From Bacteroides sp. (GTDB taxonomy: Bacteria; Bacteroidota; Bacteroidia; Bacteroidales; Muribaculaceae): a DNA stretch of 64,000 nt. A program made the translations under genes and the position numbers. Shown here piece by piece: positions 10,156 to 28,773 of the stretch (position 1 is its first letter; each line of letters starts with the position of its first letter). Below the pieces are notes generated by a model that was not told the DNA's origin, did no database searches, and saw only the letters and a program-made list of their open reading frames with translations. The stretch covers positions 1 through 64,000 of the forward strand of contig JAAVBC010000014.1 of the NCBI GenBank assembly GCA_014803765.1, written 5' to 3'.

Positions 10156-10440
10156 AATCTATAATTTTAGGTTAATACTTACTTATCTTTCCTAACACCT
10201 ATCCTACAAAATAGGTTACAAAAAAAATGATATACCTCACAAATCTATAAAAAAATATCTATTTTCCCCAATTCTCCGGCATATTTTTTCAGTTTTTTAG
10301 TCTAAAATACACAAAATATCCGCATACAATTCAAATATTTGCGCGGATACAGAATAACGAAATTTCATTTTGTCGCTATTTTTTCGTATCTTTGCCGTAC
10401 TGAATCATTCGCCAATATATGTATTTACTTTCATAAATCA
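10156..10440. promoter_or_regulatory. divergent intergenic region with -7 element of the acyl-glycan operon
   Basis: AT-rich region between DUF805 (left) and the twelve-gene operon (right). TATCTTTG at 10387-10394 is a perfect -7 element for rightward transcription, starting about 40 nt before the first gene. The nearest TTTTG upstream (10368-10372) is only 14 bases away, shorter than usual. A small hairpin (ACCTAT/ATAGGT) lies near 10200. No long inverted repeats of the kind flanking invertible Bacteroides capsule promoters are seen. Confidence 0.5.
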
Positions 10441-11091
10441 ATGAAAAAGATAGCAATATACGGAGCAGGAGGTCTCGGTCACGAAGTTGCCGCCGCGATA
10501 CGCAACGGATGGATCAGGGACTCGGAGAATTGGAAAATCATCGGATTTTTCGATGATCGGAATTTCTCTGACAACCCGACCGACCGACTATGCGGTGAAT
10601 GGTTAGGAGGGGTTGACACGCTTAACGCCTGGAAAGAACCGATTGGAGTGATTCTCTGTTTCGGCAATCCTAAAATCCGAAGGGAGATAGCTGACAAAAT
10701 CACGAATCCACTCGTTGACTTTCCAAATTGCATTTCTTCCAATTTCCGGATTTCTGATCCGGAGTCATTCTCAATCGGGAAAGGAAATATCATTCAGGGA
10801 GACTGCATTGCTACGACCAACGTCGCTCTCGGCGACTTCAATCTGCTCAACGGGAGTGTGGTTGTCGGGCATGATACGATTATCGGCAATGCCAACGTAT
10901 TAATGCCGGGATGCCGGATTAGCGGAGAGGTCGCCATTGGCAATTCAAATCTCTTCGGGGCAATGTCGTTTGTGATGCAAGGACTTCTGATTGGCAACGA
11001 TATAACCCTTTCGCCCCTTTCAGCTCTTCTCTCCAACCCCGGAAACGGGAATACTTACATTGGTAATCCCGCTAAAATATTTAAATTGTGA
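10441..11091 (+). CDS. NeuD/PglD-type sugar acyltransferase
   Basis: A 216-residue left-handed beta-helix acyltransferase. The N-terminal Rossmann-like half begins KKIAIYGAGGLGHEVA, and the C-terminal hexapeptide-repeat half carries VVVGHDTIIGN, whose His is the general base in PglD/NeuD enzymes. The ATG at 10441 is used; the frame is open further upstream but enters the promoter. Family members N- or O-acetylate sugars from acetyl-CoA. Because ACP and condensing-enzyme genes follow directly, I infer that this one may use a longer acyl donor. It is the first gene of the operon. Confidence 0.85.
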   Translation: MKKIAIYGAGGLGHEVAAAIRNGWIRDSENWKIIGFFDDRNFSDNPTDRLCGEWLGGVDTLNAWKEPIGVILCFGNPKIRREIADKITNPLVDFPNCISSNFRISDPESFSIGKGNIIQGDCIATTNVALGDFNLLNGSVVVGHDTIIGNANVLMPGCRISGEVAIGNSNLFGAMSFVMQGLLIGNDITLSPLSALLSNPGNGNTYIGNPAKIFKL

Positions 11092-11190
11092 TATCCACGT
11101 TGATTATACCCTGTAACAGTGCAACAGTAAGTTACGAAGGGTTTAATCCGGAGATTTTCATTAACTGATCATCATAAAATACTCAACAAA

Positions 11191-11418
11191 ATGGAACTCA
11201 AGGAATTCATTGATAATTTTGCTGACCAATTTAATGATACTGACGCTTCTGAATTCACTGCTGACACTGTCTTCAAAGATCTCAGCGAGTGGTCGTCGCT
11301 CGTTGCTCTGAATATCATCGCGATGGTCGATGAGGTGTATGACGTGACACTGAAAGGGGATGATATTCTCAATGCGCTATCTATTGAAGATCTCTTCCAT
11401 ATCGTAGCTTCAAGGTAA
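11191..11418 (+). CDS. acyl carrier protein 1, atypical SSL motif
   Basis: A 75-residue acidic four-helix carrier protein. The usual phosphopantetheine site DSL is replaced by EWSSLVAL at about residues 33-40, so a serine is available but the preceding aspartate is not. Such ACPs are specific to side pathways rather than general fatty acid synthesis. The stop codon is followed 3 bp later by the KAS III start. It would carry the growing acyl group as a thioester in the cytoplasm. Confidence 0.82.
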   Translation: MELKEFIDNFADQFNDTDASEFTADTVFKDLSEWSSLVALNIIAMVDEVYDVTLKGDDILNALSIEDLFHIVASR

Positions 11419-11421
11419 GTT

Positions 11422-12489
11422 ATGGCTTTCATCAAATTCAATAATTGCAAAATTGCAGGTATCAGTGCTGGAGTTCCTGAAAATGTCGAACCGACCATTT
11501 CTAATTCAGACCGATATGCAACTGAGGAATATCTGCAGACAACAGGGATTCTGGAAAAGCGATACTCTAATGAGTTCACTGCTTCCGATCTATGTCTGCC
11601 GGCAGCCGAACGATTAATAGCTGATCTCGGCTGGGATAGGAAGGATATCGATGGATTCTTCTTCATTAGTCAAACCCCCGATTATATTCTTCCTGCCACA
11701 TCCTGTGTGCTTCATGGAAGGCTCGGGCTACCGAAATCATGTATGACTCTTGATATTTCTCTCGGTTGTTCGGGATGGGTATATGGAATATCTACAGCTA
11801 TGGGCATGGTGGAATCAGGCTATCTCCGTAAAGTTCTTGTGCTGGCAGGGGATGCCCGAAAACATGCCGAAGAGGAGCCGGATCAATTGTTCGGCTATGC
11901 AGGCACAGTGACTGCCATAGAATATAATCCCCTGAAAGCAGCCCCCGTGATGATTCAGTTAGGTTCCGACGGCACAAGATTCGACACCATCATCCGCCCA
12001 GGGGGGGGGTCGCGTAACCAACTGAATTTCAACTCGTTATCGCCCAAAAAGTGTGAAGATGGGCGTCATCGTCATGCCCTCCAGACACGCATGAAGGGTA
12101 TGGACGTATTCGCATTCGGAATTACTACAGCTCCTAAGTCAATAAAGCAACTCAGCAAAGAATTCGGATTTGACTATCATGATTATGATTTCGTCGTATT
12201 TCATCAGGCAAATCTCATGATGAATGAAATCATACGTAAGAAACTCAACCTTACTCCTGAAAAGGTGCCCTACAGTCTGACTAAGTTCGGCAACACCTCT
12301 TCAGCATCAATCCCTCTGACAATAGTTACACAACTTGCCGACAAACTCAAAGGTCATAAGAAAATTATCGGATGTGCTTTCGGGGTTGGTCTTTCATGGG
12401 GCACCATCGCTTTCGAGACCGACGACCTTGTGATCTCTCCTCTTGTGGAACTTCCATCAACCAATAATATTATATCAGATGGGAATTAA
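11422..12489 (+). CDS. 3-oxoacyl-ACP synthase III-type enzyme, copy 1 (with G9 tract)
   Basis: KAS III/FabH-like condensing enzyme, 355 aa. The catalytic triad is complete: Cys116 in SLGCSGWVYG, His261 in VFHQAN and Asn291 in KFGNTSSAS. It would condense an acyl starter with malonyl-ACP. A run of nine G at 12001-12009 encodes PGGGS at about residues 193-197; gain or loss of one G would frameshift the gene before the His and Asn residues. It sits between ACP1 and an SDR reductase, with which it overlaps by 11 bp. Confidence 0.9.
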   Translation: MAFIKFNNCKIAGISAGVPENVEPTISNSDRYATEEYLQTTGILEKRYSNEFTASDLCLPAAERLIADLGWDRKDIDGFFFISQTPDYILPATSCVLHGRLGLPKSCMTLDISLGCSGWVYGISTAMGMVESGYLRKVLVLAGDARKHAEEEPDQLFGYAGTVTAIEYNPLKAAPVMIQLGSDGTRFDTIIRPGGGSRNQLNFNSLSPKKCEDGRHRHALQTRMKGMDVFAFGITTAPKSIKQLSKEFGFDYHDYDFVVFHQANLMMNEIIRKKLNLTPEKVPYSLTKFGNTSSASIPLTIVTQLADKLKGHKKIIGCAFGVGLSWGTIAFETDDLVISPLVELPSTNNIISDGN

Positions 12490-13234
12490 TTGGAATCCGT
12501 TTTCTCTTGAGGGCAAGAGAATATTGGTGACCGGAGCTTCCTCCGGCATCGGGCTCTCAACTGCCATAGAAGCAGCCAAACTCGGGGCGCACATAGTGCT
12601 TGTGGCTCGCAATGAGTCCCGGCTGAATGATACTTTTAACGCCCTTCCCGGGGAATGCCATTCCATCATCTCAGCTGACCTTACAGATGAGACAGCAATA
12701 AATCGCGTGGTTGATGAGTGCGGTATGCTTGACGGGGCTGTCTTTTGCGCCGGAAAAGGTCTGACCCTCCCTCTGCAGTTCTCCGACCGCGCTCGCTTCG
12801 ATGATGTCTTCAATATCAATTTCTTCTCTCCGGCTGAGCTTCTCCGATTGCTCTATAAGAAGAAGAAATTGACGAAAGGGGCATCTGTAGTGCTGATTTC
12901 CTCCATGGGTGGAACCCGCGTGTTCTCAGGAGGCAATTCCATCTATGGAGCTTCGAAAGCCGCCTTGGACTCTTTCGTGAAGTTTGCAGCAAAGGAGTTC
13001 GCAGCGCGCAACGTGAGAGTCAACAGTATCTGCCCTGCAATGATAGATACCCCCCTTATCCATCGCGGCACAATCTCGGACCAACAGTTGGCAGAGGATG
13101 CTAAACGCTATCCTCTTAAACGCTATGGCAGACCGGAGGATGTAGCGTATGCCGCCGTCTATCTCCTCTCCCCGGCGTCGGCGTGGGTCACCGGCACTTC
13201 CATGATTATCGACGGAGGTCTTTCCATCTCCTGA
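12479..13234 (+). CDS. SDR-family 3-oxoacyl-ACP reductase-like enzyme
   Basis: A 251-residue short-chain dehydrogenase. The cofactor motif TGASSGIG (residues 18-25), catalytic serines at 141-142 and YGASK (Tyr156, Lys160) are present, as is a C-terminal GG. The ATG at 12479-12481 overlaps the KAS III gene by 11 bp; an upstream ATG at 12443 would extend the overlap and is less likely. Placed between KAS III and ACP genes, it most likely reduces a 3-oxoacyl-ACP to the 3-hydroxyacyl form. No dehydratase or enoyl reductase is present, so the chain may stop there. Confidence 0.88.
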   Translation: MGINWNPFSLEGKRILVTGASSGIGLSTAIEAAKLGAHIVLVARNESRLNDTFNALPGECHSIISADLTDETAINRVVDECGMLDGAVFCAGKGLTLPLQFSDRARFDDVFNINFFSPAELLRLLYKKKKLTKGASVVLISSMGGTRVFSGGNSIYGASKAALDSFVKFAAKEFAARNVRVNSICPAMIDTPLIHRGTISDQQLAEDAKRYPLKRYGRPEDVAYAAVYLLSPASAWVTGTSMIIDGGLSIS

Positions 13235-13308
13235 GAGCATCGTCTATTTTAACCACAAAAGAAACGAGGCAGACCACATCCATCAAATGAAATATCCGGT
13301 AAAATAAG

Positions 13309-13539
13309 ATGAGAAAAAGCAATAATGTAAGAGAAATAATAGCGGAAGCTTTAAATGTTTCCCCGGATTGCATCACGGATAATCTGGGAATCGGAGGAAT
13401 ACCACAATGGGATTCTATGGGGAATATGGCAGTTATAGCAGCCCTTGAAGAGCAACTGGACATCGAGTTTCCGATTGAGGATCTGTTTGAGCTTACTTCC
13501 GTAAACGCAATCATTGAAGAAATCGAGAAAATAAGCTGA
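13309..13539 (+). CDS. acyl carrier protein 2
   Basis: A 76-residue acyl carrier protein with the phosphopantetheine attachment site WDSMGNMAV at about residues 34-42 (Ser in DSM) and the usual acidic recognition helix (EEQLDIEFPIEDLFEL). It lies 75 bp after the SDR gene and 47 bp before the AMP ligase, a pairing that suggests the ligase loads this carrier. It differs clearly from ACP1, so the two probably serve different steps. Confidence 0.87.
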   Translation: MRKSNNVREIIAEALNVSPDCITDNLGIGGIPQWDSMGNMAVIAALEEQLDIEFPIEDLFELTSVNAIIEEIEKIS

Positions 13540-13586
13540 TTTTCTTTTCGGTTCTCTATCGATAAATCTTATAAATGTATTCATAA

Positions 13587-15080
13587 ATGATTGATATATC
13601 CCATAGCCCGATTCTGACCGCAACATTCCGTAATGCCGCAGAGATGCCGGACAAGACGGCTGTCATTACAACTGACGGCAAGGAAATTTCATATTCTACG
13701 CTGCAGCGCAATATCCTCCGTTGCGCCAACTGGCTTTATCAGCATGGAATATCATCGGGCGACCGGATTATGATTTCTGCCGAAAAGGATGTAAAGTTTA
13801 TTTATCTCTATCTTGCCGCTCATCTTATTGGAGCCGTGAATGTCGTGGCGGACGCTGAAGATAATGCGTCGCGTCTGAAACATCTGGCTGACATTGCCAA
13901 ACCTGCTATCTGCATAGGGATCGAGTCGGCAGACAGGCGGAGTTATCTTTATTCTGAAATAAATCTTTCAGATGAGTTGGAGGCTGATGGTCAGATTCCC
14001 ACATATCAGGAAGGAAATGCAGAGAGGATTTCTCCGGATACCCCTGCCGATATTATGTTCACTTCCGGAACTACGGGGATTCCTAAGGGAGTTGTCCTGA
14101 CTCATGCCAACATCGCCGGGGGAGCACGAAATATCAATTCCTTCATAGGCAACACGGCTGAAGATGTCGAGCTCTTATGTCTGCCGGTCAGCCACTCTTT
14201 CGGACTTGGAAGATTGCGATGCAGTCTGCTGGCGGGGGCTACAATCGTAATGCACGACGGATTTGCCAATCTTAAATCTGTATTCAATGCATTTGAGAAA
14301 TTTCGCGTCTCAGGCTTCGGAATGGTTCCGGCAGCCTGGGCTTATATCAGAAGATTCAGCGGCGACTTCATCGCAAGGTATGCCCCGCAATTGAAGTATA
14401 TAGAAATAGGGAGTTCAGCTCTCCCTCACGAGGAAAAGCAACTTCTTTGCGAACTTTTCCCGACTACACGCATCTGCATGCATTATGGTCTGACGGAGGC
14501 ATCGCGGGCTGCTTTTATGGAGTTGCATGAAGACAAAGAGCATCTTGATTCAGTAGGGAAGAGTGTAAACGGAAAAGTTGATATCCGCATATTAGGGAAA
14601 GATGGCAGAGAGGCGACTCGAGGAGAAATGGGGGAGATATGCATAAAAGGGGACATCGTCACTCCGGGGTATCTTGATTCCGCTCAGAACAAGGAAGCTT
14701 TCGTCGGCGATTACTTTCGTTCAGGGGATGTAGGATACATAGATGAGGTGGGCTATCTTTATCTCACCGACCGCATAAAGGAGATTATCAATGTCGGAGG
14801 CAAGAAAGTCAGTCCGATTGAGATTGAGGAGGAGGTCAGAAAAATCTCAGGCGCTGAATCGGTATGCATAGCGGCGCCTGATCCTGACGGGATTCTCGGA
14901 GAAGTGCCGTGTCTCTTTATTCTAAAAGATTCATTGAGAATGGATCTCGAGGAATTGAAGGTCGGGCTAATGAAAAGACTCGAAAATTATAAGCTTCCGC
15001 GTTTCTTCAAGATTGTTGATTCTCTTCCTCTCTCATCCAATGGAAAGAAGAAGCGAAGAGCGGACATTAACCTGAATTGA
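13587..15080 (+). CDS. acyl-CoA/acyl-ACP ligase-like adenylating enzyme
   Basis: ANL-superfamily enzyme, 497 aa. The phosphate-binding loop FTSGTTGIPKG is at about residues 158-168, the adenine motif YGLTEASR follows, then RSGDVGYIDEVGYLYLTDR with the hinge aspartate, and the catalytic lysine of NGKKKR (Lys487). It activates a carboxylic acid as the acyl-AMP and transfers it to a pantetheine thiol, here most likely ACP2. The acid cannot be predicted from sequence alone. Confidence 0.88.
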   Translation: MIDISHSPILTATFRNAAEMPDKTAVITTDGKEISYSTLQRNILRCANWLYQHGISSGDRIMISAEKDVKFIYLYLAAHLIGAVNVVADAEDNASRLKHLADIAKPAICIGIESADRRSYLYSEINLSDELEADGQIPTYQEGNAERISPDTPADIMFTSGTTGIPKGVVLTHANIAGGARNINSFIGNTAEDVELLCLPVSHSFGLGRLRCSLLAGATIVMHDGFANLKSVFNAFEKFRVSGFGMVPAAWAYIRRFSGDFIARYAPQLKYIEIGSSALPHEEKQLLCELFPTTRICMHYGLTEASRAAFMELHEDKEHLDSVGKSVNGKVDIRILGKDGREATRGEMGEICIKGDIVTPGYLDSAQNKEAFVGDYFRSGDVGYIDEVGYLYLTDRIKEIINVGGKKVSPIEIEEEVRKISGAESVCIAAPDPDGILGEVPCLFILKDSLRMDLEELKVGLMKRLENYKLPRFFKIVDSLPLSSNGKKKRRADINLN

Positions 15081-15096
15081 AAATATCGACTCAACT

Positions 15097-16155
15097 ATGC
15101 CGGGACTTACAGTTAAAAATATACGAATCGCCGGGATGGCAGCATGCGTTCCCTCCCGAATCGAAGAGAACCTGGATCTTTCCATCTTCTCAAATAGGGA
15201 AGAGATCAGGAAAGTAATCGCCACCACCGGAATAAAACGCCACCGTGCGGTGGATGCCGGGGTAACTGCTTCCGATCTCTCGGCAAAGGCTGTCGGAGGA
15301 CTTCTCAGTGATCTCGGATGGGAAGCTTCTGAGGTAGATTGCCTTTTCTATGTCTGCACTTCCCGCGATTTCATCGCGCCGCAGACTGCGTGCATCCTGC
15401 AGCATCGTCTCGGACTTCGCAAGGATTCCTTCGTAATGGATCTCCCGTTAGGTTGCTCGGGTTGGGTCTACGGAATGAGTGTTATCGGCAGCATGATGAG
15501 CTCCGGCTTTTTTAAGAAGGGACTGCTCATTGCCGCCGAAACCAATACGCTTAATCGCAGTCAGACCGACCGCACGGTCCGTCCGCTCTTTGGAGATGCT
15601 GCCACTGTCACCGCTTTGGAATTCAATCCTGCATCCGCTCCCATGAATTTTATGTTCGGAGTCGATGGCAGCGGTTATCAGGCAATCTGGACAAAGTTCG
15701 GAGGTATGCGGTTTCCGACGACTCAGGACGCATTGAAATTAGTGGAGTATGGACCCGGGATTTCCCGGCGCGGCATAGATATGGTGGTCAATGGGATGGA
15801 TGTGTTCGGATTCGCCATCAAGATTCCGCCAAAGGCTATTAAAGAGTTTATCTCGGAATTTAATATAGATGTAGATAATTTGGATTATCTGCTTCTGCAT
15901 CAGGCAAACAAGTTTATTGACGAAAAGATACGCAAATCTCTGAAGATACCGGCTGAGAAGGTGCCGTATTGTCTGGAGGATTTCGGTAATGTCACTTCAG
16001 CTTCGATTCCTCTGACTCTCATCACACGCTGTGCGGATGCTCTCCGCAATAGCCCGTGCAGGCTGCTCGCCTGCGGTTTCGGAGTCGGATTATCCTGGGC
16101 TACCATGAACTTTTCTACCGACGGCGTAGTCATCTCCCCGTTAATCGAGTATTAG
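15097..16155 (+). CDS. 3-oxoacyl-ACP synthase III-type enzyme, copy 2
   Basis: Second KAS III-like condensing enzyme, 352 aa, paralogous to copy 1. The catalytic residues Cys120 (LPLGCSGWVYG), His268 (LLHQAN) and Asn298 (DFGNVTSAS) are intact. It begins 16 bp after the ligase gene. Where copy 1 has the G9-encoded PGGGS this copy has FGGMR, without a homopolymer. Two condensing enzymes imply two extension steps or two alternative starters. A non-condensing KAS III acyltransferase role is also possible. Confidence 0.9.
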   Translation: MPGLTVKNIRIAGMAACVPSRIEENLDLSIFSNREEIRKVIATTGIKRHRAVDAGVTASDLSAKAVGGLLSDLGWEASEVDCLFYVCTSRDFIAPQTACILQHRLGLRKDSFVMDLPLGCSGWVYGMSVIGSMMSSGFFKKGLLIAAETNTLNRSQTDRTVRPLFGDAATVTALEFNPASAPMNFMFGVDGSGYQAIWTKFGGMRFPTTQDALKLVEYGPGISRRGIDMVVNGMDVFGFAIKIPPKAIKEFISEFNIDVDNLDYLLLHQANKFIDEKIRKSLKIPAEKVPYCLEDFGNVTSASIPLTLITRCADALRNSPCRLLACGFGVGLSWATMNFSTDGVVISPLIEY

Positions 16156-16212
16156 ATTCCGGAATCCTCTCCACAAGTAATTCTTATTATCTTATCATAT
16201 ATAAAATATAAT

Positions 16213-17214
16213 ATGGGCATTGCAAAGAAATTGAAATTATACCGGATAAAGACGGTGCTGAAATATATCCCCATGAGCCTGAAAAACAGTGTCAAATTGG
16301 CTGAACTCTCCAAACAGAGCCGACCGGTCTGCTTTTTCAACTTGTTGTATTGGTATTATTTCTATGGGTTTGATTTCATTGACTATTGTTCGTTCAAATT
16401 CTGGGAACTGTCGGCAGCCGAAAGAAAATCCTATATATCCTACAGACGCAATGACGTCCTGAGATTCCGTCTGTCTGATCCGGAATCTTACGATATATTT
16501 CTCGACAAGGCTCGATTCAATGAAAAATTCAGAAAATACATACGGCGCGACTGGAAACTTCTGTCAGAAACCGATCCGCTACGTGATCTGAACTCTTTTA
16601 TTGCCAAACATTCACAAGTTATTCTCAAGCCGGTCAGTGACTTTGGGGGGCGGGGAGTGATAAAATTATCCGACTTGAGCAGTGAGGATGAGAAGCGCGA
16701 AATTTTCAAGGATAATGACACACGTTATATAGTTGAGGAATGCATTGAAAACAATGAAAATCTCAAAAAGCTTGCTCCCGGCTCATTGAACACCATCAGG
16801 TTCGTCACATTGATCGACAAAACCGGGGAACTAAATGTATTGATAAGTGCTCTGCGGGTGGGTAACGGCTCTTCATTCATGGATAATTTTCAGAGTGAGG
16901 GGTTGGCTTGCGCCATTGATACGCAGACGGGAGAATTACGAGGGAAGGCGTATGGAATTTATTGCACGGAGTATGCCTCTCATCCATATAGCGGTATAAA
17001 ATTCGATGGCTACAAGATAGAAGATTTCAGAAAATGCTTTGAGTTCTTGAAAGACTTAACCAAGGTCGTGCCGGGCGCGAGGTATGTAGGATGGGATATA
17101 GCCATGACTCCATGGGGAATTGAGGTTATTGAGGGAAATATTCCCCCGGGAGAATATGTCACTCAGATAATATCAGGGAGGGGACTCTGGTATGAAATAT
17201 TAGAGAAAATCTAA
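16213..17214 (+). CDS. sugar-transfer-associated ATP-grasp protein
   Basis: A 333-residue protein of the ATPgrasp_ST type found in surface glycan loci. After a basic N-terminal segment it has the ATP-binding lysine and glycine loop VILKPVSDFGGRGVIKL at about 135-151. Further on are NTIRFVTLID and the metal-binding GWDIAMTPWGIEVIEGN near the C-terminus. ATP-grasp enzymes ligate a carboxylate to an amine or thiol through an acyl-phosphate. In this operon it could amidate or peptidylate a sugar; that is inference. Confidence 0.8.
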   Translation: MGIAKKLKLYRIKTVLKYIPMSLKNSVKLAELSKQSRPVCFFNLLYWYYFYGFDFIDYCSFKFWELSAAERKSYISYRRNDVLRFRLSDPESYDIFLDKARFNEKFRKYIRRDWKLLSETDPLRDLNSFIAKHSQVILKPVSDFGGRGVIKLSDLSSEDEKREIFKDNDTRYIVEECIENNENLKKLAPGSLNTIRFVTLIDKTGELNVLISALRVGNGSSFMDNFQSEGLACAIDTQTGELRGKAYGIYCTEYASHPYSGIKFDGYKIEDFRKCFEFLKDLTKVVPGARYVGWDIAMTPWGIEVIEGNIPPGEYVTQIISGRGLWYEILEKI

Positions 17215-17246
17215 ACATTTGTAACCATCATATCACGATAACACTT

Positions 17247-18233
17247 ATGCAAGAACATCAGGTTGAATCCCCGATTAAGGTTTCAGTCTTAGTGCCTGTC
17301 TATGGGGTTGAAAAATATATTGAAAGATGTGCGCGGTCATTGTTTGAGCAGACAATGAAGGATGACATAGAATTCATATTCGTTAATGATGCCACTCCCG
17401 ACAATAGCCTTGAGATACTGGAACGTATAATTGATGAATATCCTGAAAGGAAGAAAAATATTCGCATCATCAATCATGACAGCAATCAGGGATTAGCTGT
17501 AGTCAGAGTGACGGGGGTTAAGGCAGCCCGGGGGGAATACGTAATTCATTGCGACAGCGATGACTGGGTCGAACCGGATATGTATCGCCTGATGTATGAA
17601 TCGGCAAAAGCCAATGACGCCGATATTGTCGTATGCGGTTATTTCTCTGAATTTGGAGGAAGCCGAGGAGTGCATCATCAATCTTTATTACCTGATAGGG
17701 AACAGACAGCCTCAAGTATACTCAGGATTGAAAAGATTCACCAGTTTCTGTGGCAGAGATTGGTCCGCAGGGAATTCTATGAAAAGTATGATTTTCGGGC
17801 AGAACCCGGTGTCACTTATTGCGAAGACTTTGTAGTCGTGGTTCCCATGCATCTGATGACTGACAAGGTAAGCGTGGTTGATGTGCCATTGTATCATTAT
17901 AATTGCGCCAATCCGGGATCAATGACCCAAGTGAGGGATGTAAGAAGAATTGAAGCAGGAAAACGGGCATTGGACTTAGTGGAGAAGTTTATTTTAACGC
18001 ATAATCATCCCGCCGTGCTCCCTGCACTTCAATATAGGAAATTTCTATATTATTTGCCTCTCATTACCTGCCTGGAATCCTACGCCCCCAAGCGCTGGCT
18101 CGAACTTGACATCCCCTCCCTGGATATTGATCTTATGACGCGCAGCAGAATCTCGGTATGGTTGGTAAGACATAGATTGTTTTTGACCAACAAGCTTCTG
18201 CAGGTAGCTATAAGAAAAATCTTTAAAAGATAA
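17247..18233 (+). CDS. family 2 glycosyltransferase
   Basis: Inverting GT-A glycosyltransferase of family GT2, 328 aa. The N-terminal VSVLVPVYGVEKYIERC and VNDATPDNS form the nucleotide-binding fold, and HCDSDDW (Asp103, Asp105, Asp106) is the DXD metal site. No transmembrane segment is present, so it should act at the inner face of the membrane. It is the only glycosyltransferase in the operon, so the locus cannot build a repeat unit by itself. Confidence 0.88.
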   Translation: MQEHQVESPIKVSVLVPVYGVEKYIERCARSLFEQTMKDDIEFIFVNDATPDNSLEILERIIDEYPERKKNIRIINHDSNQGLAVVRVTGVKAARGEYVIHCDSDDWVEPDMYRLMYESAKANDADIVVCGYFSEFGGSRGVHHQSLLPDREQTASSILRIEKIHQFLWQRLVRREFYEKYDFRAEPGVTYCEDFVVVVPMHLMTDKVSVVDVPLYHYNCANPGSMTQVRDVRRIEAGKRALDLVEKFILTHNHPAVLPALQYRKFLYYLPLITCLESYAPKRWLELDIPSLDIDLMTRSRISVWLVRHRLFLTNKLLQVAIRKIFKR

Positions 18234-18247
18234 AAATCTCTACGAAT

Positions 18248-19423
18248 ATGTCGGTGAAGAAAAATATAGCGACAGCTCGCTGCAATAAGTCAAGAGGGGA
18301 AGGGTCTGCTAATGGGTCTGCCAAACCGCATAAGTTTGTAAGATTTATCGAACTCCGGATTCCTGTCCATGCATGCACTCTCAGATGTCAGTACTGCTAT
18401 ATAACTCATCGCAGTCTGTTTGATTCATCCGTCAGACCCTTCAGATATTCTCCTCACTACATACGAAGAGTCCTTTCCCGCCAACGTCTGGGAGGGGCTG
18501 CCATAATTAATATGTGTGCCGAGGGGGAGACTTTATTAAGCAGCGAAGTGATAGAATTAGCACGCGAATTGCTCGAAGAGGGTCATTATGTCATGATTGT
18601 GACCAATGCCACGTTGACCAACAGAATTGAAGAATTAGCGAATTTTCCTAAAGAGATCATTGACAGACTTTTTATTAAATTCTCCTATCATTATATGCAA
18701 CTTAAGGAGAGGGGACTGCTTGATAAATTTTTCAATAACATACGCATGATGCGCGATGCAGGAGCATCGTTTACACTTGAGGTGACCCCTCATGATGAAC
18801 TTATACCGTTGGTAGAGGAAATGAATCAGCGGGCTATTAAGGAATTGGGCGCCTTACCTCATTTTACTGTAGCAAGAGACGACCGCTATGCTGGCAGACA
18901 TCTTCCGCTTCTTACTCAAATGAACCGGGAGGAATACCGGAATTTCTGGGGGCGTTTTAATTCTCCTCTATTCGACTATAAATTCAAGATATTCGAACAA
19001 CCTCGCTCGGAATTCTGCTGTGCAGGAGATTGGTCGGGGATTGTTGAGATCGCAACAGGCACTTGGAGACAATGCTATTATAACGCGAGCCGACCTGTTG
19101 ATATCTTCACTGATCCTGACAGCCCTATCCCTTTCCTGGCAATAGGACATAACTGCATGAGTCCTCACTGCTGGAACGGGCATACATGGCTCGGACTCGG
19201 AAGCATTCCCGGCATGGAGACTCCCACCTATGCCGAAATGAGAAACCGTGTATGCGAGGATGGCTCGGAATGGCTTAATCCTACTTTCAAAGAGCTTTTC
19301 TCCCACCGTCTGGAAGAAGCGCACATCCCCTATTCCTTATCACGGCGAATCGCTACGGACCTGAAAGTGGCGCCGATTGCAATAGCAAAAAGAATCCGAC
19401 GTCTTATTTTCGGCTCAAGATAA
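18248..19423 (+). CDS. radical SAM protein
   Basis: A 391-residue radical SAM enzyme with the canonical cluster motif CTLRCQYC (Cys43, Cys47, Cys50), followed by the partial TIM barrel. Extra cysteines in EFCCAGDW and CYYNASRP, plus a later SPHCWNGH, may bind a second cluster or metal. It follows the glycosyltransferase by 14 bp. Radical SAM enzymes in glycan loci can epimerise, deoxygenate or methylate sugars. The substrate here is unknown. Confidence 0.82.
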   Translation: MSVKKNIATARCNKSRGEGSANGSAKPHKFVRFIELRIPVHACTLRCQYCYITHRSLFDSSVRPFRYSPHYIRRVLSRQRLGGAAIINMCAEGETLLSSEVIELARELLEEGHYVMIVTNATLTNRIEELANFPKEIIDRLFIKFSYHYMQLKERGLLDKFFNNIRMMRDAGASFTLEVTPHDELIPLVEEMNQRAIKELGALPHFTVARDDRYAGRHLPLLTQMNREEYRNFWGRFNSPLFDYKFKIFEQPRSEFCCAGDWSGIVEIATGTWRQCYYNASRPVDIFTDPDSPIPFLAIGHNCMSPHCWNGHTWLGLGSIPGMETPTYAEMRNRVCEDGSEWLNPTFKELFSHRLEEAHIPYSLSRRIATDLKVAPIAIAKRIRRLIFGSR

Positions 19424-19447
19424 GTAACTCTTAACTATACTGAAATA

Positions 19448-20347
19448 ATGAGTTTTTTTAAGAAGACCCTTACATATTTGCATAAATATTTGCGATCGCG
19501 ATTCTCAATTTGCAGGAGTGATCAAATCCCGGAAACACAAAGGAATCTCACTCAGGAAGAACTTGATTTCATATCAAGAGTTGAGGTGTGTGATTATAGC
19601 GGAAATTTTATGCACATCTCTTTTGATGATGTAAGCAAATCCCTCGAAGAATTATTCAGCCATAATCATCCATCCATATATTCTGTAGAGTTCTTTAAAA
19701 ATCTCAAGGAACTTCATGAAAAATATGGTGCTTGTTTCAGTCTATATGTTTTCAGTGATAAGTTAGATAATGTGAACGACCGCTATAAGATGGAATTTCA
19801 GCAGGCCAAGGATTGGTTAAGATTCAATTTCCATGCTTATAAAAATAAAAAGTATGGGAGAAGGGGGATTAAAGGGGATTATGATAAGGGTATCGAACGC
19901 CTGCTCGTCATGGTCGGAGGTGATTCCTACTGCCTTGACGGTCAGTTCCGGGCGAGCTATTGGGAACTGAGTTTGAGGAATAGCTTATATATTAAAAATC
20001 ATTCTCTACACAAATCTTATATATTTTGCGCGAGAGATTCTTTTTCGCCTGTTAACACAAACTATTATCTGACCAAGGAACAACAAAGGCGCGTATATGA
20101 TAATGCCATATATCCTGATGCCGGGAACGGAATTATCTTTATTCAGACCTGCGCAAGATTAGATACGGATGAATTCTACAGGAAGTCAATGAAGCTTATA
20201 TCAGAAAATATCAATTGGCAGAAATATTGTGAGGTGCTGAATCATGAATGGGGATTTAACAGGGAAAGAATGGAGAAATTTTTAGAGTGGGCAAAGAATG
20301 ATATGAACTTTAGATTCGGATTCTTTGAAGATATCTATTCTGAATAA
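19448..20347 (+). CDS. polysaccharide deacetylase-like protein
   Basis: A 299-residue protein resembling the NodB deacetylase fold. It has FMHISFDDV at about residues 54-62, where the Asp pair would hold the catalytic base and metal ligand, and a FNFHAYKN segment near 127-134 that could supply His. The match is loose and the usual HxxxH metal motif is not evident. Lys/Arg-rich and Tyr-rich overall, no signal peptide. Its place in the operon supports a glycan-modifying role; confidence in the exact reaction is low. Confidence 0.55.
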   Translation: MSFFKKTLTYLHKYLRSRFSICRSDQIPETQRNLTQEELDFISRVEVCDYSGNFMHISFDDVSKSLEELFSHNHPSIYSVEFFKNLKELHEKYGACFSLYVFSDKLDNVNDRYKMEFQQAKDWLRFNFHAYKNKKYGRRGIKGDYDKGIERLLVMVGGDSYCLDGQFRASYWELSLRNSLYIKNHSLHKSYIFCARDSFSPVNTNYYLTKEQQRRVYDNAIYPDAGNGIIFIQTCARLDTDEFYRKSMKLISENINWQKYCEVLNHEWGFNRERMEKFLEWAKNDMNFRFGFFEDIYSE

Positions 20348-20397
20348 GTCAATCATAGAACAGATATTAAAACAATCATAGGACAGATATATAAATT

Positions 20398-21372
20398 ATG
20401 GATCTAAACTCAAAAATAGCTGAATTGAGAGCATCCATTTATAATCAGCTTTCACCTTTAATTCCCGGGGATTATATATTGATGGATGCTCCTTATTACC
20501 GCAATGTCGGGGATGTGCTGATTTGGGAGGGTATTCATGATTTTTGCAGACGGCTGCCCGGCAGGAATCTGGGAACGTCAAATATGACAACATGTCTTTT
20601 CCCCGAATTGTCGCCGGATGTGACAATCTTGCTGACCGGGGGTGGGAATTTCGGCGATTTGTGGCGAATTTTTCAGGATTTTCGCCTGGAGATAGTCAAG
20701 CATTATCCCAACAATCGCATCGTAATGTTGCCCCAGTCCGTGTGGTATGAAAATCCGAATCTGATAAAGAAGGATGCGGAAATAATGACTAATCACACTG
20801 ACTTACATCTATGTGCACGTGATGCATACAGTTTTAAGTTCTTTTCCGAACACTTTAAAGAGTGCAATATTCTACTCGTTCCGGACATGGCATTCTTTAT
20901 AAATCCCGATACTCTGAAAAAGTATCGGAAGAAAACCTCTCCGCGAAAATTATATCTTAAAAGAAGCGATAAGGAACTGGTAGCGGACACTGTAATCTCC
21001 GACATAGGGGAGGTGTTTGATATTCATGACTGGAAGCCATTTGAAAAACCGGACAAAGGTCTGGCATTTCTTCAGCCACTACTGAGCATGGCTTATCGCA
21101 CACGTAATAAACCCACATTGAGCAAGCTGACAGCAATTCTTGCGAATAAAATAGCCGATAAATTGGTGCGCGAGCGGATGGTTAGGGCAGGAATCAAATT
21201 TCTGTCACCATATTCAGAGATTATCACAACTCGCCTCCACACCATGATATTAGGAATCCTATTAGGAATCCCGGTAAAGATCATTGACAACAAGACCGGC
21301 AAACTATCCTCCTTCTCCGATACCTGGCTAAGCGATACCGACCTCGCATCCCCATACAGGGATCGAAGTTGA
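20398..21372 (+). CDS. polysaccharide pyruvyl transferase family protein
   Basis: A 324-residue protein of the polysaccharide pyruvyl transferase family. The N-terminal APYYRNVGDVLIWEG and glycine motif LTGGGNFGDLW (about 78-88) are typical, and a C-terminal TTRLHTMILGILLGIPV helix carries the conserved RLH. Such enzymes transfer pyruvate from phosphoenolpyruvate to make a ketal on a sugar. Last gene of the operon; a repeat-rich region follows. Confidence 0.87.
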   Translation: MDLNSKIAELRASIYNQLSPLIPGDYILMDAPYYRNVGDVLIWEGIHDFCRRLPGRNLGTSNMTTCLFPELSPDVTILLTGGGNFGDLWRIFQDFRLEIVKHYPNNRIVMLPQSVWYENPNLIKKDAEIMTNHTDLHLCARDAYSFKFFSEHFKECNILLVPDMAFFINPDTLKKYRKKTSPRKLYLKRSDKELVADTVISDIGEVFDIHDWKPFEKPDKGLAFLQPLLSMAYRTRNKPTLSKLTAILANKIADKLVRERMVRAGIKFLSPYSEIITTRLHTMILGILLGIPVKIIDNKTGKLSSFSDTWLSDTDLASPYRDRS

Positions 21373-21977
21373 ATAAATGACGTCTTTTTGTCCTAAATCC
21401 TGTATACACGAGGCGAAGCCAAGTGTCAGTGAGAATCCAGTATATCTGACAAGGTATATCGAAGCAAAAAAAGTGAAATCCATACCGATCAAAACTATTC
21501 ATTCATAAACACGCTGAATACAAAGGCGCGTCAACAACCCGCGGAAGCGGGTTGCCTAACCGTAAACCGGGGGTTTAAGCCCGTAGCGCTTAAACCCCCG
21601 GACGTCAAGACTGCTCTAATGCAACCAACCTGCGGAGCGGGTTGCCTAACCGGGATACTCAAAGCCGATAAGCACTGAGCGTTGATACCCCAGTGAGGCA
21701 ACCCGCTCCGCAGGTTGGATGATACTGTATCAGGTTATAAGTCCGCAGGTTTCAGCCCTTTGGGCTTCAACCAGCGGTTAACGGTGAGGCAACCTGCTCC
21801 GCAGGTTGGATAAATGCGGATACAAAAATACCGATTCGACCTTAACCGTGCAAGGGAGATTATGTCGTTATTTTAAGTTTAAATGAAAAAGCCGCCGCAC
21901 ACAATGCTGCATTTATACGTTTACATAATAAGCTAACGGACTATAGATATTGATTTTTCCATCGGTAATCGTTTTTT
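21373..21977. repeat. intergenic repeat cluster (short palindromic modules)
   Basis: About 600 bp without a gene, filled with palindromic modules. A 26-bp module at 21406-21431 recurs exactly at 26000-26025. Hairpin 21535-21554 has an 8-bp stem and a GGAA loop. Hairpin 21567-21601 has a perfect 14-bp stem. A 94-bp unit (21625-21718) is bounded by a perfect 23-bp inverted repeat (21625-21647 with 21696-21718), with a further half copy at about 21785-21811. A degenerate copy of the 94-bp unit is at 25871-25960. No transposase is present. Confidence 0.8.
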
Positions 21978-22008
21978 TTTGTGAAGTGGAGAAGATTGTG
22001 TAATTTTG
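21978..22008 (+). promoter_or_regulatory. promoter overlapping the SprT-like start
   Basis: TTTG at 21978-21981, 19 bases, TAATTTTG at 22001-22008. The predicted start falls within a few bases of the ATG at 22012, so the transcript may be leaderless. Confidence 0.6.
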
Positions 22009-22945: not shown

Positions 22946-23248
22946 ATGCATTTTACACCGAAAGAGCAAGACAAGTTGACTCTGCTATGTGTAGGTCTTA
23001 TTGCCGAACGCCGCCTTAAGAAAGGTCTGAAATTAAATTACCCGGAGTCCGTAGCTTATATCACAAGTTGCGCTCTTGAGGGTGCCCGTGAGGGGAAGAC
23101 AGTAGAGGAAGTTATGCACGATGCCACTCAGGTTCTCACAAAGGAACAGGTAATGGATGGCGTTGCCGACATGATTAAGCTTCTTCAGGTCGAGGCAGTA
23201 TTTACCGATGGCAGTCGACTCGTATCAATTCACAATCCTATCCGCTAA
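22946..23248 (+). CDS. ureA: urease gamma subunit
   Basis: A 100-residue urease gamma subunit, full length for a separate UreA. It has the family start [11 protein letters not shown], the conserved [10 protein letters not shown], and TEV-like segments through [15 protein letters not shown]. Gamma binds alpha and beta to form the (abc)3 holoenzyme in the cytoplasm. First of ureABC; an A-rich leader of about 190 bp precedes it, and I see no perfect TAnnTTTG there. Confidence 0.96.
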
Positions 23249-23280
23249 GGAGAAGCGGCAATTATTAAAAACATTAAATT

Positions 23281-23892
23281 ATGGCTCAGACAACATCTAA
23301 TGCATCTCAGCAAGCCGGTTCTCATCCCGCTCCCAATCCTGTTCCGGATAAGCCGATGCCCGACTTCAAGAATGGTTATGAAACCCCGATGGGCGTATAT
23401 CCCGGCACTCCCGATATCGCATATCCCAAGACTCCCGGTTTTGAACCTAAAGAGTATGTGCCTGTAGGTGGAGTTATCCTTGCAGACACTCCTATTGAAT
23501 ATAACACAGACAGACGCACTGTCAAACTGAAAGTCCGCAATACCGGCGATCGTCCCGTACAGATCGGTAGTCACTTCCATTTCTTCGAGGTGAACCGCTA
23601 CATGGAATTCGATCGTCCGAAAGCATTCGGCTATCACCTGAATATTCCTGCTACGACAGCCGTTCGTTTCGAACCGGGTGAAGAGAAGGAAGTAGAACTC
23701 GTAAGCTATGCAGGCAAACACAGAGTTATCGGCTTCGACGATCTCGTCAACGGCTACACCGGTCTGGAAGACACTCCGACATATTATCCGAAGTATCTTG
23801 AGGCTGTGCGCCGCATGAAAGAGTATGGTTATAAATCTGTCAGCGAAGAAGAAGCTGATGGAGAGTATGACGAAAATCAAGTTAAATCCTAA
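23281..23892 (+). CDS. ureB: urease beta subunit with N- and C-terminal extensions
   Basis: Urease beta subunit. The conserved core ([16 protein letters not shown] to [14 protein letters not shown]) occupies about residues 60-165, including [21 protein letters not shown]. At 203 aa it is about twice the usual separate UreB (near 100). It has a Gln/Pro-rich N-terminal extension of about 57 residues ([14 protein letters not shown]) and an acidic 40-residue tail. It lies 32 bp after ureA and 12 bp before ureC. The extensions may affect assembly; no function is known to me. Confidence 0.95.
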
Positions 23893-23904
23893 AGATTAAT
23901 TCCA

Positions 23905-25623
23905 ATGGCTACAATATCACGTCAAGATAATAACATGCTCTTCGGCCCCACAGTAGGGGATAAGATTCGCCTTGGCAACACCGATTTGTATGTAGAAATC
24001 GAAAAAGACCTGCGTGTATATGGCGATGAAGTCGTATATGGCGGTGGCAAAACCCTTCGCGATGGCATGGGTCTTGCAAATGAATGCTCTTCAAAGGAGG
24101 GCTCACTCGATATAGTTATTACTAACGTCACTATCCTTGATCCGGTGCTGGGCGTTGTGAAAGCCGACGTCGGCATTAAGGACGGCAAAATTGCGGGTAT
24201 CGGTAAAGCCGGCAACCCGAATATCATGAAGGGTGTCACTCCCGGTTTGGCTACAGGTCCGTCAACGGATGCCATCTCCGGCGAGCACATGATTCTTACC
24301 GCTGCCGGCATCGACGGTCACGTTCACTTCATATCTCCGCAGCAGGCTTACAACTGTCTGTCGAATGGTATTACTACTCTTATCGGCGGCGGTATCGGTC
24401 CGACGGACGGCACAAACGGTACGACTATCACTTCCGGTCCGTGGAACCTTGAGAGAATCCTTCAGTCAATCGACGGACTTCCGATTAACATCGGTCTGCT
24501 CGGCAAGGGTAACACTTCTCGCAAGGAGGAACTCTATGCTCAGGCAGCTGCCGGAGCTATGGGCTTCAAGATTCATGAGGACTGGGGCGCTACTCCCGCA
24601 GTCATCAGAAGTTGCCTTGAAGCAGCTGATAACCTGGATATGCAGGTTGCCATCCACACCGATACACTGAATGAATCCGGCTTTGTAGAGGACACTATCG
24701 CAGCTATCGATGGCAGAACAATCCACACTTATCACACTGAGGGTGCCGGTGGCGGTCATGCTCCTGACCTCCTGAAAGTTGCGTCAATGCCTAATGTGCT
24801 GCCTTCTTCCACTAACCCGACTCTTCCGTTCGGTATCAACTCAGAGGCTGAACTTTTCGATATGATTATGGTCTGCCATAATCTTAATCCGAATATCCCC
24901 TCTGACGTTGCTTTCGCAGAGAGTCGTGTGCGTCCGGAGACTCAGTCAGCCGAAAACATCTTCCATGACCTCGGCATTATCTCAATGGTAAGTTCTGACT
25001 CTCAGGCAATGGGACGTGTCGGTGAATCCTTCATGCGTACATTCCAGATGGCTTCTTACATGAAATCAGTAAGAGGTAAACTTCCTGAAGATGCAGAGGG
25101 CAATGATAACTTCCGCGTGCTCCGTTATCTTGCTCAGATCACTTTGAACCCGGCAATCACCTATGGTATCTCTGATATCCTCGGTTCGATTGAAGTCGGC
25201 AAGATGGCTGACCTCGTAATCTGGGAACCGGAATTCTTCGGCACCAAGCCGAATCTTGTAATCAAGGGTGGTGTCATCAACTGGGCAAATATGGGTGACC
25301 CGAATGCTTCACTTCCTACTCCTCAGCCGAAGATTATGCGTCCGATGTTCGGTGCATTCGGCGAGGCTATGCAGAAGACCCGTGTCTCCTTCATCTCTCA
25401 GGCAGCTGCTGAGGAAGATGTCAAGACTAAATACGGCTTGACTTCCGATGTATATGCTGTTCATGGTGTTCGCCAGTTGTCGAAGGCTGACATGGTTCGC
25501 AACTCAGCTACTCCGCACATTGAAGTGGATCCGGAGACCTTCTATACTTACGTTGACGGCGTACTCGCTTACGTTCCGCCGGCAAAGGTGCTTCCGTTGG
25601 CCCAACTCTACTGGTTCAGCTAA
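23905..25623 (+). CDS. ureC: urease alpha (catalytic) subunit
   Basis: Catalytic subunit hydrolysing urea to ammonia and carbamate, 572 aa. All nickel-site residues are present and fall at a constant +5 offset from the Klebsiella enzyme: His139 and His141 (DGHVHF), carbamylated Lys222 (GFKIHEDWG), His251, His277 and Asp365. The flap Cys324-His325 is kept in MVCHNLNP, where the second flap His of many ureases is Asn. Full length and apparently active. A strong terminator follows. Confidence 0.98.
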
Positions 25624-25660
25624 TCAATGCATGAGATTATAAAAATCAGATGAATATTAA

Positions 25661-25697
25661 TTACGGTGTGTCCCCGAAAGACACACCGTAATTTTTT
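25661..25697 (+). terminator. intrinsic terminator after ureC
   Basis: A perfect 12-bp stem (25661-25672 with 25680-25691, loop CCCGAAA) followed by TTTTTT at 25692-25697. It separates ureABC from ureEFGD as transcription units. Confidence 0.9.
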
Positions 25698-25746
25698 ATA
25701 CTTATAATTAATTAACTTTGGGGAAACTTTTTAACATTTACATTTG
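25678..25746. repeat. 69-bp direct repeat, copy 1
   Basis: Identical over all 69 bases to 26383-26451. It begins in the right arm of the ureC terminator and ends with a promoter-like TTTG (25717-25720)-N18-TACATTTG (25739-25746). The two copies flank a 636-bp insert. Confidence 0.95.
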
Positions 25747-26382
25747 CTGACTTCGTCATTGCGTCACCCTAAATTACCCTCAGATTTAGCTATATTTTGT
25801 TGAAAATCTATCATCTTTATTTTTGACTCAAAAAATTGACGATGTCAGGCGCGAATCGACTCTCTCGACACCAACCCAGACAAGGATTGCCTAACCGGAA
25901 ACCTCAACGCCGACAAGCACCGAGCGTCAATACAACAGCAGGACACCCCGCTCCAGTTGGCGGATCTGCCCTCTCTGTCTTATCCGTGAGATCCCGTAAA
26001 CACGAGGCGAAGCCAAGTGTCAGTGTAAATCCAACCACTTCCTGCAAGAAATTATATGAAAAAATCCGTGAAATCCGTCAGCATCCGAGCAAAAAGATCC
26101 GTGCGCTCATAATCCAAAAACAATCCCATTGATCTCAATTATTGCCTACTTGTCATATTATCTTCTTAAGATTGGAATGGATTGATTTACACACGGATCC
26201 TTTTGCTCGGATGCTGACGGATTTCACGGATTTTTTTATTTTTTTGATAATGGCGATTATTTTTTCGGAAGGGAATCACACTGACGCTCGGCTTCGCCTG
26301 CGTCTCACGGATTTGTTCGGATTCCACGGATTTTCTGACCGCCCCTTGCGTACGATAGCGACATCCACAGTGCAGCACATGG
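25747..26382. repeat. 636-bp repeat-derived insert inside the urease locus
   Basis: No credible gene. It contains a degenerate copy (25871-25960) of the 94-bp palindromic unit seen at 21625-21718 and an exact copy (26000-26025) of the 26-bp module from 21406-21431. It also holds a long near-perfect inverted repeat: about 45-bp arms at 26060-26104 and 26192-26236, one mismatch noted, separated by about 87 bp. A 98-codon open frame at 25836-26132 runs through the repeats and is not protein-like. Confidence 0.8.
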
Positions 26383-26451
26383 AAGACACACCGTAATTTT
26401 TTATACTTATAATTAATTAACTTTGGGGAAACTTTTTAACATTTACATTTG
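26383..26451. repeat. 69-bp direct repeat, copy 2
   Basis: Second identical copy of 25678-25746. It carries the terminator's right arm without its left arm, so it should not terminate, and a promoter facing ureE. Confidence 0.95.
26422..26451 (+). promoter_or_regulatory. promoter of ureEFGD
   Basis: TTTG at 26422-26425, 18 bases, TACATTTG at 26444-26451. The predicted start near 26457 gives a leader of roughly 105 nt before ureE. Confidence 0.65.
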
Positions 26452-26564
26452 TTAAAAAGGAAGTGAGAGCCATAGTAACATTAGCTCTCTCTACTATAAG
26501 CAATATTTAATGTGCAAACCGGAAGGTTTCCACTATTTCAAATCCTAAATAAAAGAAAATTATT

Positions 26565-27263: not shown

Positions 27264-27310
27264 AAAGACACCCACGGGTGACATCACCAACAACGTAACC
27301 CCCATTACTG

Positions 27311-27997: not shown

Positions 27998-28093
27998 TCC
28001 CTTCGTCAGCTTCTCTACTCAATAAATTATAAAATCATATAAGCGTACTCTCGAAGTATGCACTCTAATCACTAATAAACTTATACTTACTAT

Positions 28094-28726: not shown

Positions 28727-28773
28727 TTTCACCCTCCAACGCTTCGATCCCGGAGCTTTAAATCCCAGTAGAT

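Follow-up and report, generated by a model that had tools for sequence, protein, structure and literature searches.

The closest described systems are found in F. psychrophilum and P. syringae. In F. psychrophilum strains carrying wfpC-wfpG, a 3,5-dihydroxyhexanoyl group on Qui2NAc4N has been assigned by NMR; according to the available part of that account, the roles of the genes are predicted, two ketoacyl-ACP synthases (KAS) are assigned to the one acyl group, and its transfer from acyl carrier protein (ACP) is likewise a prediction of the authors (PMC6519341). The viosamine island of P. syringae consists of vioA-vioB-vioS-vioR-acp-vioM-vioT, and the accessible text reports that deletion of vioR abolishes modified viosamine (PMC3927599). 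Here we compare with these systems a run of 12 genes from a Bacteroides sp. contig, contained in a stretch of 64,000 nucleotides (hereafter the window). Similarly to wfpC-wfpG, the run encodes two ketoacyl-ACP synthases, ACP, a ketoacyl reductase and a PglD-type acyltransferase. In contrast, the available portion of the wfp account names no AMP ligase, second ACP, radical SAM, deacetylase or pyruvyl gene, and wfpC-wfpG sits in an O-antigen locus, unlike the window operon (PMC6519341). The viosamine island shares a KASIII, a ketoacyl reductase and an ACP in combination with VioB, proposed to place 3-hydroxybutyryl on the 4-amine of dTDP-viosamine, and is also a genomic islet flanked by conserved genes. 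However, compared by gene description in the accessible text, KASIII, reductase and ACP occur there once each, none of the seven ORFs is a ligase, and an aminotransferase and a glycosyltransferase are part of the island itself (PMC3927599). The Pgl bacillosamine pathway (PglC-PglD-PglE) has the PglD-fold transferase in common with the window, whose NeuD differs in belonging to an ACP-linked clade and in showing GHD rather than DHE around the catalytic His; PglC and PglE are not in the window.

ACP, KASIII and ketoacyl reductase genes adjoining a NeuD/PglD-type transferase, the arrangement by which we recognize a wfp/vio cassette, are all found in the window. Judged from sequence, the operon is probably a member of the wfp/vio kind of acyl-ACP-fed amino-sugar N-acylation. 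The preliminary description knew of no system with this exact set. For the acyl half this does not hold, given wfpC-G (PMC6519341) and vioS/vioR/acp/vioB (PMC3927599), and the idea of a wholly undescribed operon was rejected; what stands is that the available parts of both accounts name neither the ligase nor the second ACP. No description of the ligase variant was found in the open-licence literature searched, and the starter branch fed by the ligase seems to vary known acyl-ACP sugar N-acylation in a new way.

The operon occupies positions 10441-21372, with all 12 ORFs on the + strand, every frame open and no intergenic gap longer than 99 bp, and is flanked by divergent recJ/DUF805 and by SprT/urease. 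This bears out the continuous rightward run initially proposed, with family assignments by Pfam for every product except P0011. Seven genes form the acyl line (NeuD, ACP1, KASIII-1, SDR, ACP2, AMP ligase, KASIII-2) and five are glycan genes (table 1). Gene content, gene order, active-site motifs and clade membership were established directly. The SDR frame begins before KASIII-1 ends: with the in-frame ATG at 12479 as start codon the overlap is 11 bp, and with the TTG at 12443 it is longer. Both KASIII match ACP_syn_III and ACP_syn_III_C and retain Cys-His-Asn; the remaining Pfam matches are adh_short_C2 (SDR), AMP-binding, ATPgrasp_ST, Glycos_transf_2, Radical_SAM and PS_pyruv_trans. YxxxK in the SDR, His144 in NeuD and CxxxCxxC in the radical SAM protein are also intact, as is Ser36 in both ACPs. 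ACP2 scores above the PP-binding cut-off (35.7 against 20.8 bits) and ACP1 just under it (19.2 bits). That WSSL makes ACP1 a dead carrier was considered and rejected, since this motif or WSSM is present in 82 of the 130 ACP1-type matches (overlapping copies of the same loci included). The -7 box call relies on what we take to be the Bacteroidota promoter consensus. Upstream of the first gene, its -33 TTTG partner is absent at the usual spacing and the strict two-box pattern has no match; sigma-70-type and terminator-like sites are no more frequent than chance predicts.

Table 1. Window coordinates of the operon genes and the candidate promoter element
Feature	Positions	Strand	Evidence
TATCTTTG, Bacteroidota-type -7 box 5' of first gene	10387..10394	+	sequence reading
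NeuD/PglD-type left-handed beta-helix acyltransferase, P0001; presumed catalytic His144 in GHD motif	10441..11091	+	Pfam, TIGR, tree, motif
ACP1, P0002; Ser36 in WSSL; proposed extender ACP	11191..11418	+	Pfam just under cut-off, motif
KASIII-1, P0003; 14-row clade, members adjoin ACP1 and/or SDR	11422..12489	+	Pfam, tree, motif
SDR, proposed 3-ketoacyl-ACP reductase (P0004 minus first 12 residues)	12479..13234	+	Pfam, motif
ACP2, P0005; Ser36 in WDSM; proposed ligase partner	13309..13539	+	Pfam, neighbourhood, motif
AMP-forming acyl ligase, P0006; proposed starter loader for ACP2	13587..15080	+	Pfam, solved relatives, neighbourhood
KASIII-2, P0007	15097..16155	+	Pfam, 11-row clade, motif
Sugar-transfer-associated ATP-grasp, P0008	16213..17214	+	Pfam
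GT2 glycosyltransferase, P0009	17247..18233	+	Pfam
Radical SAM protein with further C-terminal cysteines, P0010	18248..19423	+	Pfam, motif
Predicted CE4-type polysaccharide deacetylase fold, P0011	19448..20347	+	structure model, alignment
Polysaccharide pyruvyl transferase family protein, P0012	20398..21372	+	Pfam

The branching pattern of NeuD provides clues on its probable donor. In a tree of 79 rows (185-270 aa; loci L067-L088 and exact copies left out), the window NeuD falls in a 35-row clade (SH-aLRT 99) in which every row is ACP-adjacent. A second NeuD of the same genome (L090), located between PglC and DegT, belongs to a separate clade with the G139 and G209 NeuDs (support 100); no ACP was found in the examined stretches of these three, two of which are near contig ends. 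ACP linkage is not confined to one clade, since 17 of the 52 ACP-adjacent NeuDs sit outside the 35-row clade and the label changes 7 times on the tree (shuffled mean 22.5). A survey independent of the KASIII choice gave 27 NeuD matches in 149 family genomes; an ACP gene lies within the flanking 1.5 kb of all 7 matches with E <1e-49 and of 4 of the 20 weaker ones (E >1e-18). The residue before the catalytic His is G in 50 of 52 ACP-adjacent NeuDs and D in 3/3 of the PglC-NeuD-DegT clade; G is likewise found in 6 of the 14 NeuD-like rows that have no ACP or sit at a contig edge. P0001 matches PglD_N (42.1 bits, cut-off 23.4) and scores below the curated cut-off of TIGR03570 (NeuD_NnaD; 125.8 vs 160.8 bits). 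The tree argues against a NeuD restricted to acetyl-CoA, and with NeuD in an ACP-associated clade an acylated amino sugar, as previously suggested, is still the best guess. The clade would help annotators to separate probable acyl-ACP transferases from ordinary PglD, for which the GHD motif alone is insufficient.

The ligase and second ACP had been given no role in the preliminary description. Among the best 80 of at least 561 GTDB loci by likeness to P0007, which is not a random sample, 23 of the 26 ligase-bearing loci have a second ACP; this recurring pair looks, from its neighbourhood, like a starter loader. The best solved relatives of the ligase have fatty, oxalyl and coumaroyl acids as substrates, a diversity that makes its own substrate unreadable from sequence. 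In the KASIII tree, drawn with loci from a hand-picked list, KASIII-2 belongs to an 11-row clade (support 100) of which ten members adjoin a ligase and one (L108) an ACP next to a ligase; thinned at 75% identity, the clade keeps 7 rows, all ligase-side, with support 100. Ligase-side KASIII as a whole are spread over several clades, with 6 label changes vs 14.3 when shuffled (116 of 193 rows, after 75% identity thinning). KASIII subclades tend to follow their starter-module partner. In some relatives FkbH and an ACP take the place of the ligase and ACP2, as in L061, where the order PglC-NeuD-ACP1-KS1-SDR-KS2-FkbH-ACP retains the common core and FkbH (271 bits, cut-off 147) replaces the ligase. 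FkbH (TIGR01686) is a HAD-type enzyme, whereas its window counterpart is an adenylating ligase; we take the FkbH/ACP pair to load glyceryl-ACP.

With moderate confidence, we put forward that the operon has an accessory role, the synthesis of a short hydroxyacyl group and its transfer to an amino sugar (most likely a 4-amino one) within a surface glycan; here we infer product, acceptor, starter and indeed all substrates, the order of steps and the number of extensions. The AMP ligase would adenylate a small carboxylic acid and load it onto ACP2, KASIII-2 would join this starter to malonyl-ACP1, and the SDR would reduce the resulting 3-keto group. KASIII-1 could append another malonyl unit and the same SDR could act again, which would yield 3,5-dihydroxyacyl-ACP1. 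NeuD would then take the finished acyl off ACP1 and place it on the free amine of a nucleotide-linked, UDP-Qui4N-like sugar, supplied by PglE/DegT-type aminotransferases encoded elsewhere in the genome, and the GT2, ATP-grasp, radical SAM, CE4-fold and pyruvyltransferase proteins would build or trim that glycan. Neither dehydratase nor enoyl reductase was detected by Pfam in the 12 genes, as noted previously, or in 28 other window ORFs. A 3-hydroxyacyl-ACP, the end product originally favoured as simplest, is plausible; the 3,5-dihydroxyacyl product allowed by two KASIII and one reductase is equally so.

A point against this scheme is that KASIII-1 might take acetyl-CoA and be the first enzyme to act. 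In a rather unlikely alternative, KASIII-1 would form 3-hydroxybutyryl-ACP1 in a single extension, as the viosamine island with its single KASIII, reductase and ACP genes would do in the accessible account (PMC3927599), leaving ligase, ACP2 and KASIII-2 to make or salvage a second, alternative acyl. The gene order does fall into ACP1/KASIII-1/SDR and ACP2/ligase/KASIII-2 clusters, which the KASIII clades match; however, the block has only one NeuD to take two products, and in F. psychrophilum two KAS are assigned to one acyl group in the available text (PMC6519341). An improbable scenario has the acyl line producing a free or lipid-linked small molecule, with the glycan genes an unrelated pathway and chance neighbours in the island. 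The two halves are indeed also found apart, which in part goes against the single unit of the preliminary description by its own criterion of separate occurrence in relatives: L292 has rSAM-pyruvyl-GT2 without the acyl line, and the examined stretches of ten g18 genomes hold the acyl line with none of the radical SAM, P0011 and pyruvyl genes. NeuD is missing from the examined stretch in 37 of the best 80 of at least 561 loci, so this KASIII family serves further uses too. Yet NeuD is the first gene of the operon and belongs to an ACP-linked clade, and the search for the block across relatives recovered the 7-gene acyl order in L047 and L101. It also recovered the wider set in G209, where two contigs carry it, an additional aldo/keto reductase gene is present, and PglC, GT2 and a DegT aminotransferase accompany it. 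The arrangement is thus more than chance.

The Pfam scan of the same 12 and 28 ORFs also yielded no aminotransferase, polymerase, flippase or initiating transferase, the last two expected of a Wzx/Wzy-type locus. This agrees with the decoration module proposed earlier in that initiation and export genes are lacking; however, the missing initiating transferase is a trait of this copy, as the G209 set shows, although PglC and DegT are also absent near the L101 and L106 copies in the stretches examined. The same absences would suit a decayed remnant whose acceptor locus was lost, as would the lack of a strong 4,6-dehydratase (PF02719) in the own assembly, a point that also counts against our preferred scheme, one being present in G139 and G209. 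We regard such decay as very improbable: all 12 frames are open with intact motifs, the assembly is just 58% complete, and the genome retains on other contigs PglC, DegT and flippase loci, including two PglC loci on contigs with flippase genes as well.

Returning to the hydroxyacyl-transfer scheme, we tentatively extend it to Bacteroidota, where amino-sugar decoration might be a modular polyketide-like line, a constant NeuD-ACP1-KASIII-SDR core combined with an exchangeable AMP ligase/ACP or FkbH/ACP starter module, each with a matched KASIII lineage. If so, a module swap would alter the acyl cap and hence the surface antigen, starter loader and KASIII lineage could predict Bacteroidota acyl caps, and a source of gut-bacterial surface variation would be testable with few purified proteins.

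In one of 12 recJ regions, that of G259, UreD and its neighbour lie ~175 bp from recJ and the islet is absent; at the other 11, that side holds different window genes or none, or the contig ends there. G259 is therefore a candidate empty site, only suggestive. SprT was rejected as a conserved neighbour, genus matches reaching at most 45% identity.

P0011, which matches no Pfam family, Polysacc_deac included, gave a poor first model (pLDDT 40.6); seven sequences led to a usable core, predicted to have a CE4-type, NodB-type fold, in line with the earlier deacetylase-like guess. D60, D61, H90, H129 and H266 are invariant across seven sequences, and the closely spaced His pair, a classic feature of the CE4 metal site, is not apparent in them. 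Both P0011 and the radical SAM protein are rare: counting the own genome, P0011 occurs in 2 of 344 order genomes and, by profile, in 5 of 395 phylum genomes, and for the radical SAM protein 7 of 295 order genomes have a match, a weak one in three of these.

The twelve open reading frames of the operon all lie on the forward strand, separated by intervals of 3 to 99 bp apart from one overlap, which bears out the continuous rightward twelve-gene run of the preliminary description. Their Pfam and NCBIfam assignments are, in order, NeuD/PglD, ACP, KASIII, SDR, ACP, AMP ligase, KASIII, ATP-grasp, GT2, radical SAM, a protein without family (P0011) and pyruvyl transferase, and the active-site motifs are intact. 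On the left are found DUF805, recJ, recQ and dinB, all in the opposite orientation; on the right, 633 bp with repeats lead to SprT and then to a urease cluster. The repeats may have a role in ending transcription, or mark an insertion site. The promoter-like match downstream of them fits a separate transcription of SprT.

Coordinates of the operon, its surroundings and related loci
Feature	Sequence	Coordinates	Strand	Description
Operon	window	10441-21372	+	twelve ORFs
Repeats	window	21532-21811		between operon and SprT; imperfect direct and inverted, ~28-36 nt, CAACCTGCGGAGCGGGTTG type
Promoter-like match	window	21978-22008		full two-box Bacteroidota match, immediately 5' of SprT
Urease region	window	22946-35588		after SprT; urease genes, urea transporter, CbiM/CbiQ-type metal uptake genes
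Promoter-like sequence, copy 1	window	25717-25746		urease region; 30 bases, two-box
Promoter-like sequence, copy 2	window	26422-26451		identical to copy 1, 705 bp apart
PglC locus of contig C12	L089	10868-17010		PglC, PLP decarboxylase, PylC-like ATP-grasp, two ATPgrasp_ST, aldo/keto reductase, DegT
P0011 relative	L284	998-2233		

The search for the seven-gene acyl line in relatives, as suggested earlier, showed that the block recurs (G139, L101) with different flanks. In G139, of the same genus, the window order NeuD-ACP1-KS1-SDR-ACP2-ligase-KS2 (KS1 and KS2 being KASIII-1 and KASIII-2) is kept, and continues into the ATP-grasp gene, at 64-81% identity up to the contig end; the left neighbours (nicotinate phosphoribosyltransferase, integrase, type I specificity gene) differ from those of the window, and so this copy occupies another site. 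In G209, from another genus of the family, one contig terminates in PglC-GT2-?-NeuD-ACP1-KS1-SDR, while a second reads SDR-ACP2-ligase-KS2-ATPgrasp-AKR-rSAM-pyruvyl-GT2-P0011-like, its later genes including a GT2, an acyltransferase-3, a metallo-hydrolase and the first part of a DegT aminotransferase. The two probably adjoin, since their SDR pieces cover separate parts of P0004 (residues 13-67 and 96-263); the ATP-grasp gene and the GT2 gene of G209 each have a split frame, which was kept as such. The locus L101 has the exact seven-gene order, together with a UDP-sugar dehydrogenase, an aminotransferase and a TupA-type ATP-grasp, with neither PglC nor DegT within the 19 kb examined; the window copy and L106 likewise stand without these two genes. 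A KASIII-2 orthologue (at least 62% identity) is present in 13 of 247 family genomes, namely the window's own, G139, G209 and ten of the genus g18. The g18 order is PglC-NeuD-SDR-ACP1-ACP2-ligase-KS2-ATPgrasp-MBL-DegT-NeuD-ACP1-KS-GLO-GT2-FkbH-ACP, with one gene missing or undetected in several genomes. Thus, the acyl line recurs as a module, in many cases inside Pgl-type loci.

The surroundings of recJ in 12 regions of the window's genus are variable on the operon-bearing side, and in G259 UreD and its neighbour lie ~175 bp from recJ, the islet being absent. No integrase occurs within the twelve-gene block. Together with the different site in G139, the variable side and the islet-free G259 fit an accessory islet.

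Among the best 80 of at least 561 GTDB loci, in the stretches examined, we found NeuD in 43, ACP1 in 74, SDR in 77 and two or more KASIII in 59. A ligase is present in 26 (with a second ACP in 23) and FkbH in five (all with a second ACP); PglC occurs in 20, DegT in 39, and NeuD together with either in 36, while 37 have no NeuD. By title, 71 of these 80 belong to Bacteroidota; seven carry the names of other phyla, probably wrongly in some cases, and for two the title gives no phylum. The locus L098, titled Clostridium sp. (NALB_7821a_17), has the gene map of contig C32 of G209, and its title looks wrong. A different arrangement, KS-ACP-KS-SDR, recurs in other Bacteroidota (L132, L141, L143, L147, L150, L159), without NeuD in the stretch examined.

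In the KASIII tree, 12 of 14 presumed housekeeping FabH rows form a separate outside clade (100); the other two are L255 (G007) and a KASIII that also belongs to the L055 locus. KASIII-1 belongs to a 14-row clade adjoining ACP1 and/or SDR (99), and KASIII-2 to an 11-row clade (100), ten of which adjoin an AMP ligase and the eleventh (L108) an ACP next to a ligase. Those adjoining FkbH or its glyoxalase-like gene form a single clade (99, before and after thinning). With rows thinned to 116, the ligase-side label requires 6 changes against a shuffled mean of 14.3 (0 of 500 shuffles as low). Ligase-side KASIII are nonetheless spread over several clades, and so lineage follows partner gene as a tendency. 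The locus L061 (PglC-NeuD-ACP1-KS1-SDR-KS2-FkbH-ACP) keeps the core of the window operon and carries a different loader. The assignment to FkbH is solid (TIGR01686, 286 bits in one protein and 271 in that of L061, cut-off 147). The newest element would be a starter module that can be exchanged, to which KASIII lineages are loosely matched.

The window NeuD falls in a 35-row clade of the 79-NeuD tree (SH-aLRT 99), every member of which has an ACP gene no more than 1.5 kb away. Outside this clade, the tree includes another 17 ACP-adjacent NeuDs. The genome's other NeuD (L090, between PglC and DegT) clusters with NeuDs of G139 and G209 (100), and no ACP gene was seen beside these three, two of them near contig ends. 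Since most rows came from KASIII loci, P0001 (NeuD) was also searched against 149 family genomes, independently of KASIII, giving 27 matches. An ACP gene flanks (1.5 kb) all seven strong matches (E <1e-49; six of six without the window) versus four of 20 weak ones (Fisher p ~4e-4, by hand, treating matches as unrelated). Glycine precedes the catalytic His in 50 of 52 ACP-adjacent rows, 13 of 13 with KASIII only and 6 of 14 without ACP or at contig edges; all three PglC-NeuD-DegT rows have Asp.

Acyl-ACP-fed N-acylation of amino sugars is already known (wfp, vio), and by analogy the operon would be a variant of it; the V. cholerae O1 tetronate genes, with ligase and ACP, are a further likely parallel. 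PMC6519341 predicts that wfpC-G make 3,5-dihydroxyhexanoyl, passed from ACP to UDP-Qui2NAc4N, the group itself being assigned by NMR. PMC3927599 shows loss of the modified viosamine on deletion of the reductase gene vioR, within a pathway that its authors propose.

On the acceptor side, PglC is encoded twice in the window's genome, on contig C10 and on contig C12, in both cases with a flippase gene ~19 kb upstream. Both contigs (ends of L090 and L089) break within the same kind of multi-copy DegT gene, their last 119 bases being identical; contigs of G139 and G209 likewise terminate in DegT, indicating that glycan loci of this kind are break points of these assemblies. C10 reads PglC-NeuD-DegT. 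A strong PF02719 dehydratase is present in G139 and G209 and was not found in the window's own assembly, which is 58% complete. On C12 no NeuD separates PglC from DegT, and 6.7 kb upstream of PglC there is a gene for a hexapeptide-repeat protein. This locus looks like an amino-acid-type sugar decoration, and it is tempting to regard C12 as the acceptor locus for the operon's acyl group.

Relatives of P0011 (L284, L295-L298) include one with a TAT-like start, and some adjoin GH109- or GH20-type genes; they possibly represent a deacetylase family outside Pfam.
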